From: Aquimarina sp.
GTDB taxonomy: Bacteria; Bacteroidota; Bacteroidia; Flavobacteriales; Flavobacteriaceae
Assembly: GCA_011524575.1 (NCBI GenBank)
Contig: WTKB01000348.1
Span: 1 to 16,813 of the forward strand
Reading direction: 5' to 3'
Length of the DNA stretch: 16,813 bases
Shown here: positions 1 to 6,911 of the stretch, one piece after another
Layout: each line of letters starts with the position of its first letter
Numbering within the stretch: the stretch's first letter is position 1
Translations under genes and position numbers: made by a program
The notes under the pieces: generated by a model
Told to the model about the DNA's origin: nothing
Database searches by the model: none
Seen by the model: the letters and a program-made list of their open reading frames with translations, nothing else

Positions 1-121
1 TAAGGTTTTGGTTTACTTTTAAATGATGCACATATCGAGATATGTAAATCTTTTTAAAGTGATCCAAGTTCTTAAAATTTTGGATTACAGGAAGTAGGGA
101 GTTTAAACAAGCTCTAATGCC
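1..121 (+). repeat. Dispersed intergenic repeat, copy A
   Basis: This is the first of three near-full copies of one sequence family in the window (others at 195-320 and, inverted, at 6749-6870). By eye it matches each at roughly four positions in five. Shared blocks are TAAGGTTTTGGTTTAC near the start, CTTTTAAATGATG, GAGATATGT, an AAATTTTGGATTACAGGAAG block, and a terminal GTTTAAACAAGCTCT. Two inverted repeats lie inside: ACATATC-GA-GATATGT at about 31-46, and GTGATCCAA / TTGGATTAC (about 58-66 and 80-88, one G-U pair). The copy may extend left beyond the window edge. It has no credible ORF. I do not recognise the family; it could be a MITE-like or REP-like element, or a structured RNA. The 74 bases between copies A and B hold only a weak TGTAAAA/TTTTACA inverted repeat. 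Confidence 0.8.
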
Positions 122-194
122 AATTCTTACTTAAATTGACTGTAAAAAATCCTCTAAATTTATTTTACAATAGTTTTGCAAGAATTAGGTATAA

Positions 195-320
195 AAGTTT
201 AAGGTTTTGGGTTTCTTTTAAATGACGTGCAAATCGAGATATGTAAGTCTTTTCAAAGTGATCTAAGCTATTAAGGTTCTGGTTTTTAGGAAGTTGTGAG
301 TTTAAAACAAGCTCTTATCC
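195..320 (+). repeat. Dispersed intergenic repeat, copy B
   Basis: This second copy lies in the same orientation as copy A. It opens with AAGTTTAAGGTTTTGGG and ends with GAGTTTAAAACAAGCTCTTA. The core GAGATATGTAA and AAAGTGATCTAAG blocks are conserved, but both internal hairpins are weaker than in copy A: the ACATAT arm has become GCAAAT, and the GGATTAC arm has become GGTTTTTA. Its right end reaches the stop codon of the minus-strand nuclease gene (320-322). It therefore fills the whole 3' flank of that gene. Confidence 0.8.
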
Positions 321-1687
321 TAGAAACTTATTTTTTTGATCTTGGGGTATTTTCTTAAATAACTTTGTATAATATGTTTTGCATCTTGGTTATGCTGAAG
401 TTCAATAAGTCTTTCTTCTAGTCTTTCTATTGAAATAGTACTGATTTGTTCACTATTTTTAAAATAGGTAAATCCTTTTACTTCAGAATTTTTAATGAGA
501 ACTACGCTGTATTCTTGAGGTGATTTCCCCTTACCGATTAAGAGCATATTTTTATTTTGGAAGCTGTGTTCTTCGATAAGTTTTCGCACCCGTTTGTTGT
601 AATTTTCTGAAGATTCCTGACCGATACATGCTCCTAAACACTCATTAATTTCTTTGTTAAAACATTGATTTTTTTCAGTAGATAACCCTATCATTTTTGC
701 ACAAAGTTGATGGTTTTTTGTAACTTTTTCTAGGAACTTTTTACCATTACTAATACTTTTGAAGGTGGTAATAGCTTTTTTCTTGGTATTGATTTTAAGT
801 ATTTTAAGTTGTATATAGCCATTTGTGTCTGTTATGGGGTATAATCCACAAGAAAATACTTGTTGTTTGAGTGCTTTATTGTATTTGGGGCGGTAATTCT
901 TAATTTCTTGGTTTTCCAGAAGTAGTGCAATGAGTTCATTACCAGTTAACTGATAGCGTATTGTTTCTATCTCTCGTTGCAATTGTAGTGCTTTTCTAGA
1001 AGTGCCTGTAAAGTGTTGTTTAATGCGTTTTTGAATGTTTTTGCTTTTTCCTATATAAATAATCTGGTTGTGAGTATTACACATGTAATAGATTCCTGTA
1101 TATGGAGGAGCATCCTCTAGTAGCGGTTGTAATCTTGGAAGTATTTTTGAATCATTGAATTTTTTAATACATTCATTAATTAATTCATTTGATTCTTTTT
1201 TGTTAATTATAATTTTGAAAAGTTCAAGTGTAGCTAAGGCATCTCCATAGGCACGATGTCTATTTTCTATTGGAATTCCAAGAGATCTTACCAGTTTTCC
1301 AAGACTATGAGAGCTTGCATTAGGAAAAGCTTTTTTAGATAATTCCACTGTACAAAGCGTATCTCTTAAAAAATTATATCCAAGGTTCTTATAGGCATTT
1401 TTTAGTATTCGGTAATCAAAACTTGTATTATGTGCTACAAGGACACATCCTCTAGTAAGTTCTTCTATTCTTTTTGCAATTTCATAAAATTTTGGAGCAT
1501 CTTTTACCATTTTTTGAGATATACCAGTTAGTTTTTCCACAAAGGGTTGGATGTTTCTTTCTGGGTTTACTAGGGTGGTAAGACTATCTACAGTTTTTTT
1601 TCCATCAAAGATGTATATAGCAATTTCTGTAATGCCTTCTTGGTTAAATTTTCCTCCAGTAGTTTCTATATCTAAAATGGCGTACAA
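320..1687 (-). CDS. DEDDh exonuclease / GIY-YIG nuclease fusion (DnaQ-UvrC/Cho-like)
   Basis: This 455-residue protein joins two nuclease modules. Residues 1-160 are a DnaQ-type 3'-5' exonuclease with all DEDDh residues visible: DIETTG (D6, E8), AHNTSFD (D91) and HRAYGD (H144, D149). Residues about 194-275 form a GIY-YIG endonuclease like those of UvrC and Cho: GIY at 198-200, YIG at 211-213, R221, and probable catalytic E258 in LLLENQEIKNY. The C-terminal part carries the cysteine cluster CFNKEINECLGAC, similar to the region after the UvrC nuclease domain. No UvrB-binding or HhH domain is evident, so this is not UvrC itself. Proteins of this design are usually annotated as DNA polymerase III epsilon-like; a role in DNA repair or processing is inferred. 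It is the last gene of a four-gene minus-strand cluster, 20 bp after yggS. Its TAG stop abuts repeat copy B. Confidence 0.9.
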   Translation of the reverse strand: MYAILDIETTGGKFNQEGITEIAIYIFDGKKTVDSLTTLVNPERNIQPFVEKLTGISQKMVKDAPKFYEIAKRIEELTRGCVLVAHNTSFDYRILKNAYKNLGYNFLRDTLCTVELSKKAFPNASSHSLGKLVRSLGIPIENRHRAYGDALATLELFKIIINKKESNELINECIKKFNDSKILPRLQPLLEDAPPYTGIYYMCNTHNQIIYIGKSKNIQKRIKQHFTGTSRKALQLQREIETIRYQLTGNELIALLLENQEIKNYRPKYNKALKQQVFSCGLYPITDTNGYIQLKILKINTKKKAITTFKSISNGKKFLEKVTKNHQLCAKMIGLSTEKNQCFNKEINECLGACIGQESSENYNKRVRKLIEEHSFQNKNMLLIGKGKSPQEYSVVLIKNSEVKGFTYFKNSEQISTISIERLEERLIELQHNQDAKHIIQSYLRKYPKIKKISF

Positions 1688-1707
1688 ACTTTTTTTATAT
1701 TATTTAA

Positions 1708-2379
1708 TTAGTTATAATTTCGTTGTCCAAAAATAGAGCTTCCTACTCTTATCATGTTGCTGCCTGAGTTTATTGCTATAGAATAGTCACTACTCATTCC
1801 CATAGACAAGGTTTCTATGGTTACATTTTTAGGTAAATTAGGAGTTGTTTTTAAGGCATCAAAGTAGTTTTTTAAATTTTCAAATTCTTGTTGTATTTGA
1901 TTTTTGTTAGGGGTAAAACTTGCCATTCCCATAAGTCCTTTAATTCGAATGTTTTTTAATTCTTTAAAATTATCAGAATGTAATAGTTCTTGAACTTGAG
2001 CTTCTGATAGCCCAAATTTTGTAGTTTCTTCGGCAATTTTTAGTTGCAATAAACAATCGATTATCCGATTATTTTTTAAGGCTTCTTTATTGATTTCTTT
2101 TAATAATTTTAAGCTATCTACACCATGAACCAAACTGACAAAAGGAGCCATGTATTTCACTTTATTCGTTTGTAAATGCCCTATGAGGTGCCAAGATATA
2201 TCTTTGGGTAAGTTTTCCCATTTTGTTACCATTTCCTGTACTTTGTTTTCTCCAAAAATTCGTTGTCCAGCTTCATATGCTTCTAAAATAGCACTTTCGG
2301 GCTTAGTTTTAGAAACGGCTACAAGGGTTACATTTGTTGGAAGTTGAGATTTTATCTCTTTGAGTTGTGAGACAATCAT
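1708..2379 (-). CDS. yggS: YggS/PLPBP family pyridoxal phosphate homeostasis protein
   Basis: This is a full-length (223 aa) single-domain TIM-barrel protein of the YggS/PROSC (COG0325) family. It binds pyridoxal 5'-phosphate without known enzymatic activity and helps keep PLP and amino-acid pools balanced. Family signatures are visible: the PLP-binding lysine in VAVSKTKP (K24), FGENKVQE at 42-49, and WHLIGHLQTNK at 63-73. The C-terminal phosphate-binding region carries LSMGMSSDY and IRVGSSIFGQR. The gene lies 15 bp downstream of the oxidoreductase and 20 bp upstream of the nuclease fusion, so co-transcription is likely. The cytosolic location is inferred from the lack of a signal peptide. 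Confidence 0.95.
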   Translation of the reverse strand: MIVSQLKEIKSQLPTNVTLVAVSKTKPESAILEAYEAGQRIFGENKVQEMVTKWENLPKDISWHLIGHLQTNKVKYMAPFVSLVHGVDSLKLLKEINKEALKNNRIIDCLLQLKIAEETTKFGLSEAQVQELLHSDNFKELKNIRIKGLMGMASFTPNKNQIQQEFENLKNYFDALKTTPNLPKNVTIETLSMGMSSDYSIAINSGSNMIRVGSSIFGQRNYN

Positions 2380-2394
2380 AACGCGATATAGGTT

Positions 2395-3363
2395 TTAGGC
2401 GGTTTTAAAATTTTGAATGATCCCAAGGGCAACTTCTAATGCTTTTGTTGCTTGTTCTAGAGTTACGGCTGGAGAAGTATTGTTATTAATCGCATCTGCA
2501 AAGGCATTTACTTCTTCTAAAATAGCATTATTGTTTTCGGGTTTAGGGTTTTCAAAATAAATTTGTTTTTTAATGCCCTCAGCATTTTCTAGAATCATAT
2601 CGAATTCCCCAGGAATTTCAGGAGCATTCTTCATTTTAACTATTTCACAATTTTTTTCTAAAAAATCTATAGAGATATAAGCATCTTTTTGAAAAAATCG
2701 AGATTTCCTCATGTTTTTCATTGAAATTCTACTCGATGTTAAATTAGCAACGCAACCATTTTCAAATTCTAAACGTGCATTGGCAATATCAGGGGTTTCG
2801 CTAATTACAGCTACTCCACTAGAGTTTATATTTACCACCTCTGAATTTACCACACTTAGAATTACATCAATGTCATGAATCATAAGATCTAACACTACTG
2901 GAACATCCGTACCTCTAGGGTTAAACTCTGCTAACCTATGGGTTTCAATAAACATAGGTTGTTTTATTTTATCTTTAGTTGCTAAAAATGCAGGGTTAAA
3001 ACGTTCTACATGACCCACTTGACCTTTTACATTATGCGTTTTGCATAGGGCAATAAGCTCTTTAGCTTCTTCTAAATGATGTGTGATAGGTTTTTCTATG
3101 AACACATGCTTTTTAGAGCTAATGGCTTTTTTTGCTATAGCGTAATGAGCCACAGTAGGGCATACAATATTTATTACATCTATAGCTTCTAGTAGTGTAT
3201 CTAGATCTTCATAATAGGTGTATCCAAATTCTTCAGCGACTTTAATACTCGCTTCCTTATTGGTGTCATGAAAACCAATTAGTTGATATTTATCAGACTG
3301 ATTTAATAATTTTAAATGGATTTTTCCAAGATGTCCTGCACCTACAACTCCTACTTTAAGCAT
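2395..3363 (-). CDS. Gfo/Idh/MocA family NAD(P)-dependent oxidoreductase
   Basis: This 322-residue protein is a typical two-domain Gfo/Idh/MocA dehydrogenase. The N-terminal Rossmann fold begins VGVVGAGHLGKIH (glycine motif at 8-13). The family signature EKPITHH lies at 90-96 and supplies the lysine (K91) near the nicotinamide. The segment GHVERFNP (117-124) and DLMIHDID (159-166, catalytic-type H163) belong to the sugar-binding C-terminal domain. GHVERFNP resembles UDP-N-acetylhexosamine 3-dehydrogenases, but the exact substrate cannot be assigned from sequence. The gene sits 40 bp downstream of the DUF2723 glycosyltransferase candidate and 15 bp upstream of yggS. A role in making a nucleotide sugar is plausible but unproven. 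Confidence 0.9.
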   Translation of the reverse strand: MLKVGVVGAGHLGKIHLKLLNQSDKYQLIGFHDTNKEASIKVAEEFGYTYYEDLDTLLEAIDVINIVCPTVAHYAIAKKAISSKKHVFIEKPITHHLEEAKELIALCKTHNVKGQVGHVERFNPAFLATKDKIKQPMFIETHRLAEFNPRGTDVPVVLDLMIHDIDVILSVVNSEVVNINSSGVAVISETPDIANARLEFENGCVANLTSSRISMKNMRKSRFFQKDAYISIDFLEKNCEIVKMKNAPEIPGEFDMILENAEGIKKQIYFENPKPENNNAILEEVNAFADAINNNTSPAVTLEQATKALEVALGIIQNFKTA

Positions 3364-3403
3364 AGCTTGTTTTTTTACAAAAATAAAATTATTCTAAGTG
3401 ATT

Positions 3404-6400
3404 TTATGAATTTTCTGTACTTGAATTTAATGTATCCTTGTTAGGTGTAACTTCTTTTGTTTTGTCAATATTTTCTTGGTCGGTTTGCAGTACTTCTTCT
3501 GGACTGTATAAGTTTTCAAAAAGTAATAAATATTCATTAAACTCACGAGCTTTTTTCATAACATAAGTTTCACTTTCATAGCTGACAAGAGTTTTAACAA
3601 TATTTCGGTAACGCTCTACTTGACTGATTACTTCGTCTGAGTTTTGTAGCTTTCGCTTTGTGTCTAAACTTGCTAAATACAAGATTCTTTCTTGGTATTT
3701 TAATGCTAATTTATTCCAAAGTTTTCTAGCTTTTTCTTTTTCTTCCAGTTTGTAGTAACCTTCTATAAATGGTTCTATTAATGTGTAGTACCCATAATAG
3801 TCCATTGGAAGTTTTTCCATACCCAAATCCAATACGGCTTTAGCTTTTTCTTTTTTACCTTCTTTAAATAGTTCTTCAAACAAACGAGCAAGTGTACTTC
3901 TGTAAGTAATTGCATTTTTACGAGTTTCTGGATCATGGTAAATATCTGGTCTTTCCGAATTTCCCCATTCCCAATTCATAACATTTTTATAAAGTTTATT
4001 AGCGTTTACACGTCCCATATCAAATGGGTTATTGGGATCAACAGGTGTTTTGATAGGTACAAGTTTATAGGTTAATCCTTCTACTTGTAAGTAGTCTTTA
4101 AGCCATAAGTAATCCGCATCCGAAAAACTTCCTCCTGTAAAATATAATGGACGTTCCCAGTTGTTATTTGCTAATAAATCAAGCATTAAGAGTCTGTTTT
4201 TATATAAAATATCATCCCCTATAGTAAGGTAAACAAAATCTTCTATAAGATCCGCATCTTTTGAATCTACCAAACCATTCTCAAGTACTACTTTTTTATC
4301 AACTGGAATTTTAATATGTTTACTAGGGTAGGTATTTACCCATACATTATTTTGAAGTTCTACTTTGGTACGTTTATCATCACTTTGCACAAAATTCATC
4401 CATGTTTTAATATCTAATGTGTCACTAGTTACTACTTGACCAAAAACTGCATCATTACTTCCCCATTTGTAAAAAGAATGTGTTAATTGTGATGGTATAG
4501 GAGCACTTTTATATGCTGCCTTTTTCATTTGGTCTATGTACCAGTCTGTTGCAAATAAGCTGGTGTTTAATGTACGTACATCAGTACGGTAATTTTCAAT
4601 ATCTTGTGCATACCATAATGCAAATGTGTCGTTGTCTCCAATGGTAAATAAAATAGCATTTTCATCGCACGAACTCAAATACATTTTTGCCATTGATTGT
4701 GCTGTGTATCTGTTAGATCTATCGTGGTCATCCCAGTTTTCAGAAGCTAAGAGCATCGGGCAAGCGGTGAATAAAAACGCAAAAAGACCAATAACAGCTC
4801 CTTTTTTCTTAAAAAATTGTTGGTATTTGTTGTAAATAGCTGCACCTCCTAGTCCTATCCATATACAAAAAACATAAAAAGATCCTACAAGTGCATAGTC
4901 TCTTTCTCGTGGTTCAAAAGGTCTTTCGTTAAGATAAAATTTAAGTGCTAAACCAGTAAAAACAAAAAACAAAAGTAGTACCCAAAAGTTTTCAATGTCT
5001 TTTTTTGAATGGAAAAATACACCTATAATTCCTAGTAATAGTGGGATAAAATAATAGGTGTTACGTGCTTTGTTGTTTAGTGCATCAGGATTTAGATGTT
5101 CTTGGTTTCCTAGTCTTATACTATCGATAAAAGGAATTCCACTGATCCAGTTACCATCAAAGTTCGTGTATTGTCCCTGATTATCGTTTTGTCTTCCTGT
5201 AAAATTCCACATAAAGTAACGCCAGTACATATATCCAAATTGGTATTCCAACATGTAATTGATATTTGCAAGAAATGAAGGTTTTTCAATAGTTATATAT
5301 TCTCCACTGAGTTTATTTAAAAAGTCAGCGTATTGCTTCATGTCTATTCTACCTGTATTGTAATCTTCGATAAAGCGCTTTAAAACCGCTTGTAATTCAG
5401 GGTCATTTTGGTATTCAGGTTTTACTTCAAACTTTAAGGGTCCTGTAAATTTCAAGTAATTTTCAGCGTGTTCACTACTCCACATACGTGGTAAAAACGC
5501 TTTGTGTGCTTCTTCAAAGTTTTGTTTTGTGTTTTTGTATTGATTTACAATAACATATTTGTTGTTTTTAAGATCCTTTTCAAATTTTGGTTTATCATCT
5601 TTGTAAGGAGTTATAGGGTCTAGTCCTCCATACATTTCTGTAAATTGGGGGCCGTAAAAAAGGTGTGTTTCTTGGTATTGTTCTCGGTTGTAGTATGCTA
5701 ATAATTCACGAGCGTTATTAGGGTTATTTTCATTGATTACTGTGCCTGCGTTGGCTCTAATAGGGAGCATTATCCAAGAAGAAAATCCAATGAGTATAAA
5801 TAAAATACAAAGTACTAATGTATTTAACAGTATATAATTTTTCTTTGTAGTCCATTGTAGTAAGAAATAAAATAGGATTACTAGGGTTGCTCCCATAAAT
5901 AGTGTTCCAGAGTTAAAAGGAAGTCGTAGGGTGTTTACAAAGAAAACTTCAACTTTTCCAAATAAAGTAAGTGTACTAGGAAGTAATAGTTTAAAAATAA
6001 ACATCAAAATACCTACCACACTTATATTAGCTATAATGAATTTTTTGATGTTAATTTCTTTTTGTGTTTTAAAGAAATACAAGAATCCAATGGCTGGTAT
6101 TGTTAGTAATCCCATGAAATGTATTCCAAATGAAAGTCCGATAACAAAACTAATGAGAAGCAGCCATCTGTGTCCTTTAGGAGTTTCCAAATCTTGTTGC
6201 CAGCGTGTGCCTAGATAAAAAAGTAAAGATAGAATGAGCGTAGCCATAGCATAAACTTCGGCTTCTACAGCATTAAACCAAAAACTGTCCGTAAATGTGA
6301 AGCTAAGAGCTGCGAGTACACCACTACCAAGTATGGCTATTGCATTTTTGGGAGTGAGTTCTTTGGACTTTCTGTGTGTATAACCAAATAAATGCCCTGT

Positions 6401-6712
6401 TAAATAGGTGGTGTTCCAAAATAAAAACAGGATGGTAAACGCAGAGGAAACAACAGACATCATATTTACAGCAAGTGCTATGTAAAGGTTGTTGGGGCTA
6501 AACATAGCGAAAAAAGCACCCATCATTTGATATAAAGGTGCCCCAGGAGGATGACCTACTTGTAGTTTTGCTGATGTTGAGATGTATTCGCCTGCATCCC
6601 AAAAACTTGCTGTTGGTTCTACCGTTAGTGTATATACCATAAATGCAATACTAAATACTATCCATCCTATAAGGGTATTGTATTTACTATAGGTTGAGGA
6701 AGAAATTTTCAT
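3404..6712 (-). CDS. DUF2723 (GT117/TMEM260-like) multi-pass membrane protein, putative glycosyltransferase
   Basis: This large membrane protein (1102 aa) has the DUF2723 architecture. The N-terminus has a first membrane helix (about 14-30), then SFWDAGEYI at 36-44 and VGHPPGAPLY at 52-61. The acidic pair D39/E42 sits where GT-C glycosyltransferases keep their catalytic motif. About ten to twelve hydrophobic segments are visible in two blocks (about 14-320 and 550-660), with a soluble insert between them. Conserved NERPFEPRERDYALVGSFY lies near 594, followed by GDNDTFALWYAQD near 690. The soluble C-terminal region becomes helical and TPR-like and ends in a Thr/Asn-rich tail. The human relative TMEM260 is a protein O-mannosyltransferase; for the bacterial members a role in envelope or protein glycosylation is inference. 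It is the first gene of the minus-strand cluster. I found no clear -7/-33 promoter upstream, where repeat copy C lies 36 bp from the start codon. Confidence 0.88.
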   Translation of the reverse strand: MKISSSTYSKYNTLIGWIVFSIAFMVYTLTVEPTASFWDAGEYISTSAKLQVGHPPGAPLYQMMGAFFAMFSPNNLYIALAVNMMSVVSSAFTILFLFWNTTYLTGHLFGYTHRKSKELTPKNAIAILGSGVLAALSFTFTDSFWFNAVEAEVYAMATLILSLLFYLGTRWQQDLETPKGHRWLLLISFVIGLSFGIHFMGLLTIPAIGFLYFFKTQKEINIKKFIIANISVVGILMFIFKLLLPSTLTLFGKVEVFFVNTLRLPFNSGTLFMGATLVILFYFLLQWTTKKNYILLNTLVLCILFILIGFSSWIMLPIRANAGTVINENNPNNARELLAYYNREQYQETHLFYGPQFTEMYGGLDPITPYKDDKPKFEKDLKNNKYVIVNQYKNTKQNFEEAHKAFLPRMWSSEHAENYLKFTGPLKFEVKPEYQNDPELQAVLKRFIEDYNTGRIDMKQYADFLNKLSGEYITIEKPSFLANINYMLEYQFGYMYWRYFMWNFTGRQNDNQGQYTNFDGNWISGIPFIDSIRLGNQEHLNPDALNNKARNTYYFIPLLLGIIGVFFHSKKDIENFWVLLLFFVFTGLALKFYLNERPFEPRERDYALVGSFYVFCIWIGLGGAAIYNKYQQFFKKKGAVIGLFAFLFTACPMLLASENWDDHDRSNRYTAQSMAKMYLSSCDENAILFTIGDNDTFALWYAQDIENYRTDVRTLNTSLFATDWYIDQMKKAAYKSAPIPSQLTHSFYKWGSNDAVFGQVVTSDTLDIKTWMNFVQSDDKRTKVELQNNVWVNTYPSKHIKIPVDKKVVLENGLVDSKDADLIEDFVYLTIGDDILYKNRLLMLDLLANNNWERPLYFTGGSFSDADYLWLKDYLQVEGLTYKLVPIKTPVDPNNPFDMGRVNANKLYKNVMNWEWGNSERPDIYHDPETRKNAITYRSTLARLFEELFKEGKKEKAKAVLDLGMEKLPMDYYGYYTLIEPFIEGYYKLEEKEKARKLWNKLALKYQERILYLASLDTKRKLQNSDEVISQVERYRNIVKTLVSYESETYVMKKAREFNEYLLLFENLYSPEEVLQTDQENIDKTKEVTPNKDTLNSSTENS

Positions 6713-6748
6713 AGATCAAATACTTATAAATTAAATCACTTTTATGAA

Positions 6749-6870
6749 AGAACTTGTTTAAAGGCACTACTTCCTGTGATCCAAAATTTTAAGAACCAGA
6801 GTCACCTTAAAAGAACTCACATATCTTTAGGTATGTACATCATTTAAAAGTAAACAAAAACCTTAAACTT
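6749..6870 (-). repeat. Dispersed intergenic repeat, copy C (inverted)
   Basis: Read on the minus strand this matches copy A closely. It starts AAGTTTAAGGTTTTTG, continues TTTACTTTTAAATGATG and AAAATTTTGGATCACAGGAAG, and ends CTTTAAACAAGTTCT. The first hairpin is kept with an altered loop (ACATAC-CTAAAG-ATATGT). The outer pair TTGTTTA near one end and TAAACAA near the other is a perfect 7-base inverted repeat here. It lies just upstream of the DUF2723 gene, so it may sit in or next to that operon's promoter or leader. Confidence 0.8.
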
Positions 6871-6911
6871 CTGAATTACAGTTTGTATTCAGTTTAAACA
6901 AGTGATAAGCC
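6861..6911 (+). repeat. Partial copy D of the dispersed repeat (3' half)
   Basis: The plus-strand stretch CCTTAAACTTCTGAATTACAG, followed by a GTTTAAACAAG block at 6892-6902 and GTGATAAGCC, aligns with the last third of copy A (TCTTAAAATTTTGGATTACAG, then GTTTAAACAAG and GCTCTAATGCC). Only the 3' part is present. Its left edge overlaps the start of copy C on the opposite strand by about ten bases, so the two copies are joined head to middle. It is more diverged than copies A-C. Confidence 0.55.

Follow-up and report, generated by a model that had tools for sequence, protein, structure and literature searches.

Results

The window, that is the whole stretch of 16,813 nucleotides analysed here (contig WTKB01000348.1 of the Aquimarina sp. 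assembly GCA_011524575.1), contains three elements of one repeat family as listed by a profile search (Table 1). We regard the family as very probably one of miniature inverted-repeat transposable elements (MITEs), inserting at TNA targets and moved by an IS5-family transposase of the IS1031 kind. Throughout the text G000 denotes the genome to which the window belongs, G000:C320 the window contig, and the other G numbers related genomes. The three window copies share 74-83% identity in pairwise BLAST comparisons (best E 4e-30). The unit to which they belong is 156 bp long in the own genome and runs from A-GAGCTTGTTTAAAC to GTTTAAACAAGCTC-T; the terminal inverted repeats GAGCTTGTTTAAAC / GTTTAAACAAGCTC, the short length and the absence of a gene of its own are all features of a MITE. 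The unit is moreover near-palindromic, the strand of one copy matching the opposite strand at about 73-76%.

A preliminary description of this DNA had reported a unit of about 120 bp, present in three near-full copies and one fragment. The repeats are real, and the length has to be corrected to a 156-bp near-palindrome, the shorter value resulting from the truncation or decay of the copies at hand. Since the unit is near-palindromic, the third copy (6749-6870, minus strand) and the fragment (6861-6911, plus strand) are the two arms of a single element, copy C. The first two copies are confirmed, copy A appearing short because the contig starts inside it (its sequence agrees to 99% with that of a full copy in contig C288 of the own genome) and copy B, 82% identical to copy A, being decayed on its left. 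An intact target duplication is found at none of the three: copy A preserves the right side only (TAA), copy B has TTA on its right and has lost its left end, and copy C is flanked by AAA and TAA. The TTA beside copy B ends 2 bp ahead of the stop codon (320-322, minus strand) of an open reading frame (ORF) at 320-1687, while copy C lies ahead of the ORF at 3404-6712, at a distance of about 37 bp from the start codon. The earlier remark that no transposase lies nearby agrees with our reading of the window's long ORFs, among which none was recognised, although these ORFs were not scanned against family libraries.

Table 1. Repeat elements and their parts in the window
Feature	Position	Strand	Remarks
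Copy A	1-114	+	left side cut at contig start; profile match to model positions 43-156
Copy A, right terminal repeat GTTTAAACAAGCTC	101-114	+	followed by TAA (115-117)
Copy B	193-314 (start approximate)	+	left part decayed; profile match to model positions 35-156 only
Copy B, right end GTTTAAAACAAGCTC	300-314	+	followed by TTA (315-317)
Copy C	6750-6905	-	both arms kept, ends decayed; profile match 6749-6902, model positions 5-156
Copy C, inverted arms	6752-6793 and 6862-6903		arms of a single element

Copy number in the own genome

Besides the three window elements, 110 copies or pieces were found in a further 80 contigs of the own genome (2.09 Mb in 373 contigs, 89% complete), which excludes chance and bears out the earlier claim of a dispersed family. 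A DNA search of the same genome gave at least 77 matches, counting both strands, from the best 40 of 470 candidates. Copy number was estimated on 60 contigs chosen by number (323,863 bp); contigs C9, C18, C207 and C352 were left out and are all known carriers, so that the estimate is slightly low. In this sample the profile found 57 copies or pieces, of which 19 are near full length, 20 are truncated by contig edges and 18 are other pieces. Scaled by length, these correspond to about 120 near-full copies and about 370 when pieces are included, in which edge pieces may count one element twice. A further 20 contigs, mostly picked as carriers, held 53 copies or pieces (25 near full), and the window three (one near full). 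For the 43 copies that reach, or nearly reach, both ends, divergence from their consensus averages 7.4% (range 1.3-14.9%). Copies enclose 20 of the 120 contig ends in the number-chosen sample, and repeat copies at contig ends account for part of the break-up of this genome into 373 contigs.

Two copies in contig C58 (L013 and L014, G000:C58, 3109-3225 and 3507-3623) lie about 400 bp apart with a common right flank and differing left flanks, as would result from a small duplication or from a join made at the repeat during assembly. With 2.1 Mb at 89% completeness, the genome itself falls below the size of most members of the genus examined (mostly 4-7 Mb), yet carries many MITE copies; it could possibly belong to a reduced, perhaps host-bound lineage.

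Target duplication and empty sites

Mobility is indicated by the flanks of the copies. Among the 38 own-genome copies complete at both ends, TNA stands on 36 left and 36 right sides, and the flanking 3-mers are equal in 27, while flanks of 4, 5 or 6 bp are equal in none. In the 34 copies flanked by TNA left and right, the middle base is the same 27 times, against a shuffled mean of 17.3, with 27 reached in 13 of 20,000 shuffles. Copies in the own genome thus show the 3-bp TNA duplication expected of such a MITE.

Two insertions in sister species, each followed through seven loci, showed the corresponding empty sites. At site 1, filled in G020, the flanks are joined in G001 by a single TTA; G030, G027 and G002 lack the element and show small junction changes, G004 and G024 are too altered for placing the junction, and the near flanks are unmatched at the G031 locus. 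At site 2, filled in G030 and G001, the element is absent from G002, with a single TTA in its place, and from G020 and G004, where CTA replaces TTA, while G024 and G067 hold 24 and 70 other bases, respectively. The G027 locus at this site (L209, about 1490-1514 counted on the minus strand) contains 23 bp resembling the two tips of the element, which look like what would be left if its middle had been deleted.

For the window, the comparison is possible at copy C, where relatives keep the order of gene then tRNA-Gln with a shorter spacer: for example, the matched pieces are 141 bp apart in G062 vs. 426 here, and 167 bp apart in G072 vs. 433 here. The flanks in these relatives are too diverged for a base-exact junction, so that mobility is documented by the two insertions in sister species and not base-exactly for any window copy. 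In G070 (G070:C6:75839-76408), five matches to the tRNA-Gln region follow one another on one strand about 117 bp apart, and are probably a tandem array of this tRNA gene.

Placement relative to genes

Placement was assessed with simple ORF calling (at least 100 aa) rather than annotation, such ORFs covering 88% of the sampled sequence. The location between genes noted earlier holds in the sample, none of 45 near-full copies overlapping one of these ORFs by more than 20 bp. For the 27 copies with an ORF on both sides, the gene pairs are tandem in 18 cases, divergent in seven and convergent in two, following the share of intergenic sequence in each class (20,624, 7,141 and 2,359 bases, respectively); an enrichment between convergent genes was therefore rejected. 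Within tandem pairs, 16 of 18 copies are closer to the upstream stop codon than to the next start and 13 lie within 30 bp of the stop. A strand bias was likewise discarded, with nine copies in the same and nine in the opposite orientation.

Candidate partner insertion sequence

An insertion sequence (IS) with nearly the same ends was found in two sister species. Searching for PF13340 gave 18 matches in four of 36 genomes and none in the own genome. Nine of these loci were examined first, and two of them (one in G003 and the intact one in G010) had both ends at the correct spacing; the remaining ones had a left-type end (three G010 fragments), loose matches only (two) or no ends (two). The intact IS is 884 bp long and present in nine copies in G003 and one in G010, with ends reading GAG[C/T]ATGTTTAAA and equal TNA flanks in all ten. 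Its transposase, 256-262 aa as called, belongs to the IS5 family (NF033580 above cut-off, PF13340, PF01609), and at E <= 1e-10 the protein was found in two of 56 genomes, G003 and G010. For the IS1031 subgroup, insertion at TNA with a repeat of 3 bp is described (PMC12016507), and length and TNA target suggest that the 884-bp element falls in this subgroup. Over their first 15 bases, the IS ends in G010 and the left end of the MITE in that genome carry one and the same variant, GAGTATGTTTAAAAA.

The only PF01609 match of the own genome lies in L165 (G000:C100, about 1105-2439), has an internal stop and is accompanied by MITE pieces. It was rejected as a partner, as no matching pair of ends surrounds the gene: the close end-like motifs at 665, 768 and 837 of L165 look like MITE pieces and all lie to its left, and the others are loose, with up to three mismatches.

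Hairpin

A typical copy of the own genome folds into one hairpin (-67.9 kcal/mol, z -12.2), as compared to -38.8 kcal/mol (z -3.1) for copy C and -48.8 kcal/mol (z -7.1) for a G010 copy. Covariation was analysed in 20 sequences (19 distinct) from seven genomes, 8 of them own copies, using a structure derived from the same alignment; with related sequences in such a set, the events counted are not independent. In the alignment 93.8% of cells pair, and both sides have changed at 17 of 50 pairs (shuffled mean 12.0, reached in 1 of 500). The covariation score is 0.276 vs. 0.134 when shuffled and at most 0.082 when slid, and there are 47 further pair types vs. 42.0 (13 of 500). Covarying secondary structure of this kind is a mark of structured RNA genes, and we count it as support, not proof. 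Within the own genome, 31 both-side changes preserve a pair, as compared to 17.2 after shuffling (0 of 1000), an excess that subfamilies could cause; in 35 of 43 copies the stability exceeds the average for equal substitutions placed at random, and stability drops with the divergence of the copy. A constrained, active lineage with decay of the copies once inserted would fit these data. Inspected by eye, the single folds of nine of 15 elements, from seven of 11 genomes, share a 3-bp step between 3x3 interior loops, located behind the outer stem. The step is missing from G024b; part or all of the fold differs in G030b, G067b, G014, G085 and G106.

Spread among genomes

A covariance model built from 20 elements (E <= 0.001, with stricter filters under which weak matches may be lost) matched 11 of 66 genomes of the genus, G000 and G010 being counted from their best 45 candidates each; G024 alone gave 36 matches, both strands counted. 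Outside the genus, one of 148 sampled genomes from other genera of the family was matched, G106, whose 156-bp element has the ends GAAT... and ...GCCC, the flanks TCA and TTA, and a best single fold that differs from the family's single hairpin. When 57 genomes were ranked by their score against the window's gene fragment, the first seven (G062, G058, G005, G007, G072, G083 and G086) gave no MITE match, while the next, G014, did, so that the spread is patchy. A pattern fitted to the copies of relatives, rather than to the own copies, retrieved 33 stretches from named genomes, all from Aquimarina sp. RZ0, Aquimarina sp. Aq78 and the uncultured Flavobacteriaceae bin EG16N_Bin3, and one degenerate internal pattern retrieved none from viral contigs. 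Four matches of 71-72 bp that span the whole model (G027:C27:63988-64058, G030:C12:91621-91691, G002:C16:93250-93320 and G020:C1:1051648-1051719) are perhaps one shared, internally deleted copy.

The absence of further copies in the genome or its relatives, which would have spoken against a family, was thus not observed, and neither was a match to a described family in Rfam. In the Rfam scan of the window the tRNA alone reached its gathering score and the covariance model of flavo-1, which the preliminary description had named as a candidate, was unmatched; a looser search of positions 1-340 gave three matches, all far under threshold and none of them flavo-1. Among the titles listed from the open-licence PMC literature on MITEs in Aquimarina and Flavobacteriaceae, on Correia and related elements, on IS1031, on insertion sequences, genome reduction or symbiosis in Aquimarina, and on hairpin MITEs with compensatory changes, none dealt with this repeat.

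Discussion

The family appears to be new, ordinary in kind and unusual in how well its hairpin is kept. Of the explanations offered by the preliminary description, that of a non-autonomous mobile element was the one to gain ground, on account of the TNA duplications, the sites found empty in relatives and the existence of an IS whose ends are nearly the same and whose TNA flanks are equal. Judged from these sequence features, the copies were probably moved by an IS1031-type transposase. A DDE transposase from an IS5-family element of this kind would recognise the MITE ends, GAG[C/T][A/T]TGTTTAAA..., and move the gene-less element of about 156 bp to a TNA, duplicating the three bases. The mover would act in trans, and might be the transposase of the 884-bp IS or a relative of it that was lost or remained unassembled. 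In this Aquimarina lineage the MITE would have multiplied to the extrapolated number of about 120 near-full copies, often just behind stop codons. Insertion followed by the loss of those copies that harm genes or promoters explains this placement without any host function, and such loss may be why the copies now lie between genes.

Several observations weigh against this picture. The own MITE ends read GAGCTTG, one base off GAGCATG in the IS, and GAGCTTG likewise stands at the right end of the MITE in G010; beyond about 14-18 end bases MITE and IS are not alike by eye, and the pairing is one of ends and target. Searches for the transposase were negative in the own genome (incomplete and fragmented as stated above), and among the carriers searched it was found only in G010, six further genomes yielding a weak, broken piece in one of them, G024 (E 8.8e-6). 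G003, with its nine IS copies, gave no MITE match to the covariance model. With the IS rare among MITE carriers and G003 unmatched by the MITE model, the hosts of the two coincide poorly today. In addition, 11 of the 38 complete own copies have unequal flanking 3-mers.

A different origin would be a repeated structured RNA or element of 3' untranslated regions, whose hairpin serves the host by protecting mRNA 3' ends, terminating transcription in both directions or offering a binding site, with mobility secondary. The compensatory changes between species, the nearness of tandem copies to the upstream stop codon and the greater stability of most own copies than expected under random substitution all speak for it, and given the covariation the folded strand may still have a role, as in the earlier structured RNA proposal. 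The same copies nevertheless show no strand preference and no enriched gene arrangement, their stability declines as they diverge, insertions are missing at the same sites in relatives, and no Rfam family other than tRNA, flavo-1 included, reached its threshold in the window; proximity to stop codons is equally expected if harmful insertions near promoters are lost. We therefore consider a host-kept RNA very improbable. Even less credible is a family resembling repetitive extragenic palindromes (REP) or bacterial interspersed mosaic elements (BIME) and spread by a REP-associated tyrosine transposase (RAYT) of the Y1 type: many palindromic intergenic copies are indeed present, but the 156-bp unit, its terminal repeats and the 3-bp TNA duplication make this earlier suggestion a poor fit, and the ends are nearly identical to those of a DDE-type IS.

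Under the preferred reading of a MITE moved by an IS1031-type transposase, the conserved inside is the part left unexplained. Compensatory changes maintain the long hairpin from species to species, although the inside is unlike the IS ends, and this is the less ordinary side of the family. The hairpin itself, with its interior loops in fixed positions, may be selected, as a folded single strand of RNA or DNA, read by a host or transposition factor, that would favour the propagation or the tolerance of the element; we hold this only tentatively and think it rather doubtful. The main neutral rival, which concerns the hairpin alone, is template switching in replication, whereby one arm rewrites the other, and to which we give somewhat more credit while still regarding it as uncertain. 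Such correction is known from long imperfect palindromes, and the resulting compensatory changes would look alike. Template switching would tend to erase the 3x3 loops around the 3-bp step, yet these are seen in most of the elements and genomes folded; the point is weakened by G024b, without the step, and by the five elements that fold otherwise.

If the hairpin were selected, the family would be a MITE carrying a conserved structured module not derived from its IS; if not, it would still be useful for studying what keeps long palindromes symmetric. Aquimarina gains a MITE together with an IS whose ends match, a pair whose relation is directly testable, and the inside of the MITE, beyond its ends, looks constrained as a hairpin across species.

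Known systems share some of these traits. Correia elements of Neisseria are intergenic MITEs of about 150 bp, present in many copies, dependent on an IS and sometimes carrying regulatory signals. Going by this general description, the Aquimarina MITE resembles them in size, in high intergenic copy number and in its probable IS dependence, and differs in target and probable IS family, the Correia target being TA and the IS of another family. Elements of the REP/REPIN type are built of short palindromic units of about 20-40 nt, to which the 156-bp unit found here does not correspond. Associated with RAYT transposases, they form intergenic hairpins in many copies (PMC3116915, PMC2817692); the likeness lies in the multicopy intergenic hairpins and the difference, apart from unit length, in the TNA duplication and the candidate DDE-type partner. 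For QMITE2 of Coxiella burnetii, of about 190 bp and with direct repeats of 7-9 bp, the transcript is predicted as a stable stem-loop in a review (PMC10969869), so that the similarity to the Aquimarina MITE concerns the predicted stem-loop, and length and direct repeats set the two apart. With the IS1031 subgroup of the IS5 family the MITE shares the TNA target and its 3-bp repeat (PMC12016507), and with the IS5-family element of 884 bp in G003 and G010 it has the ends GAG...TGTTTAAA in common; it differs in having no transposase gene and in an inside that, by eye, is unlike the IS ends.

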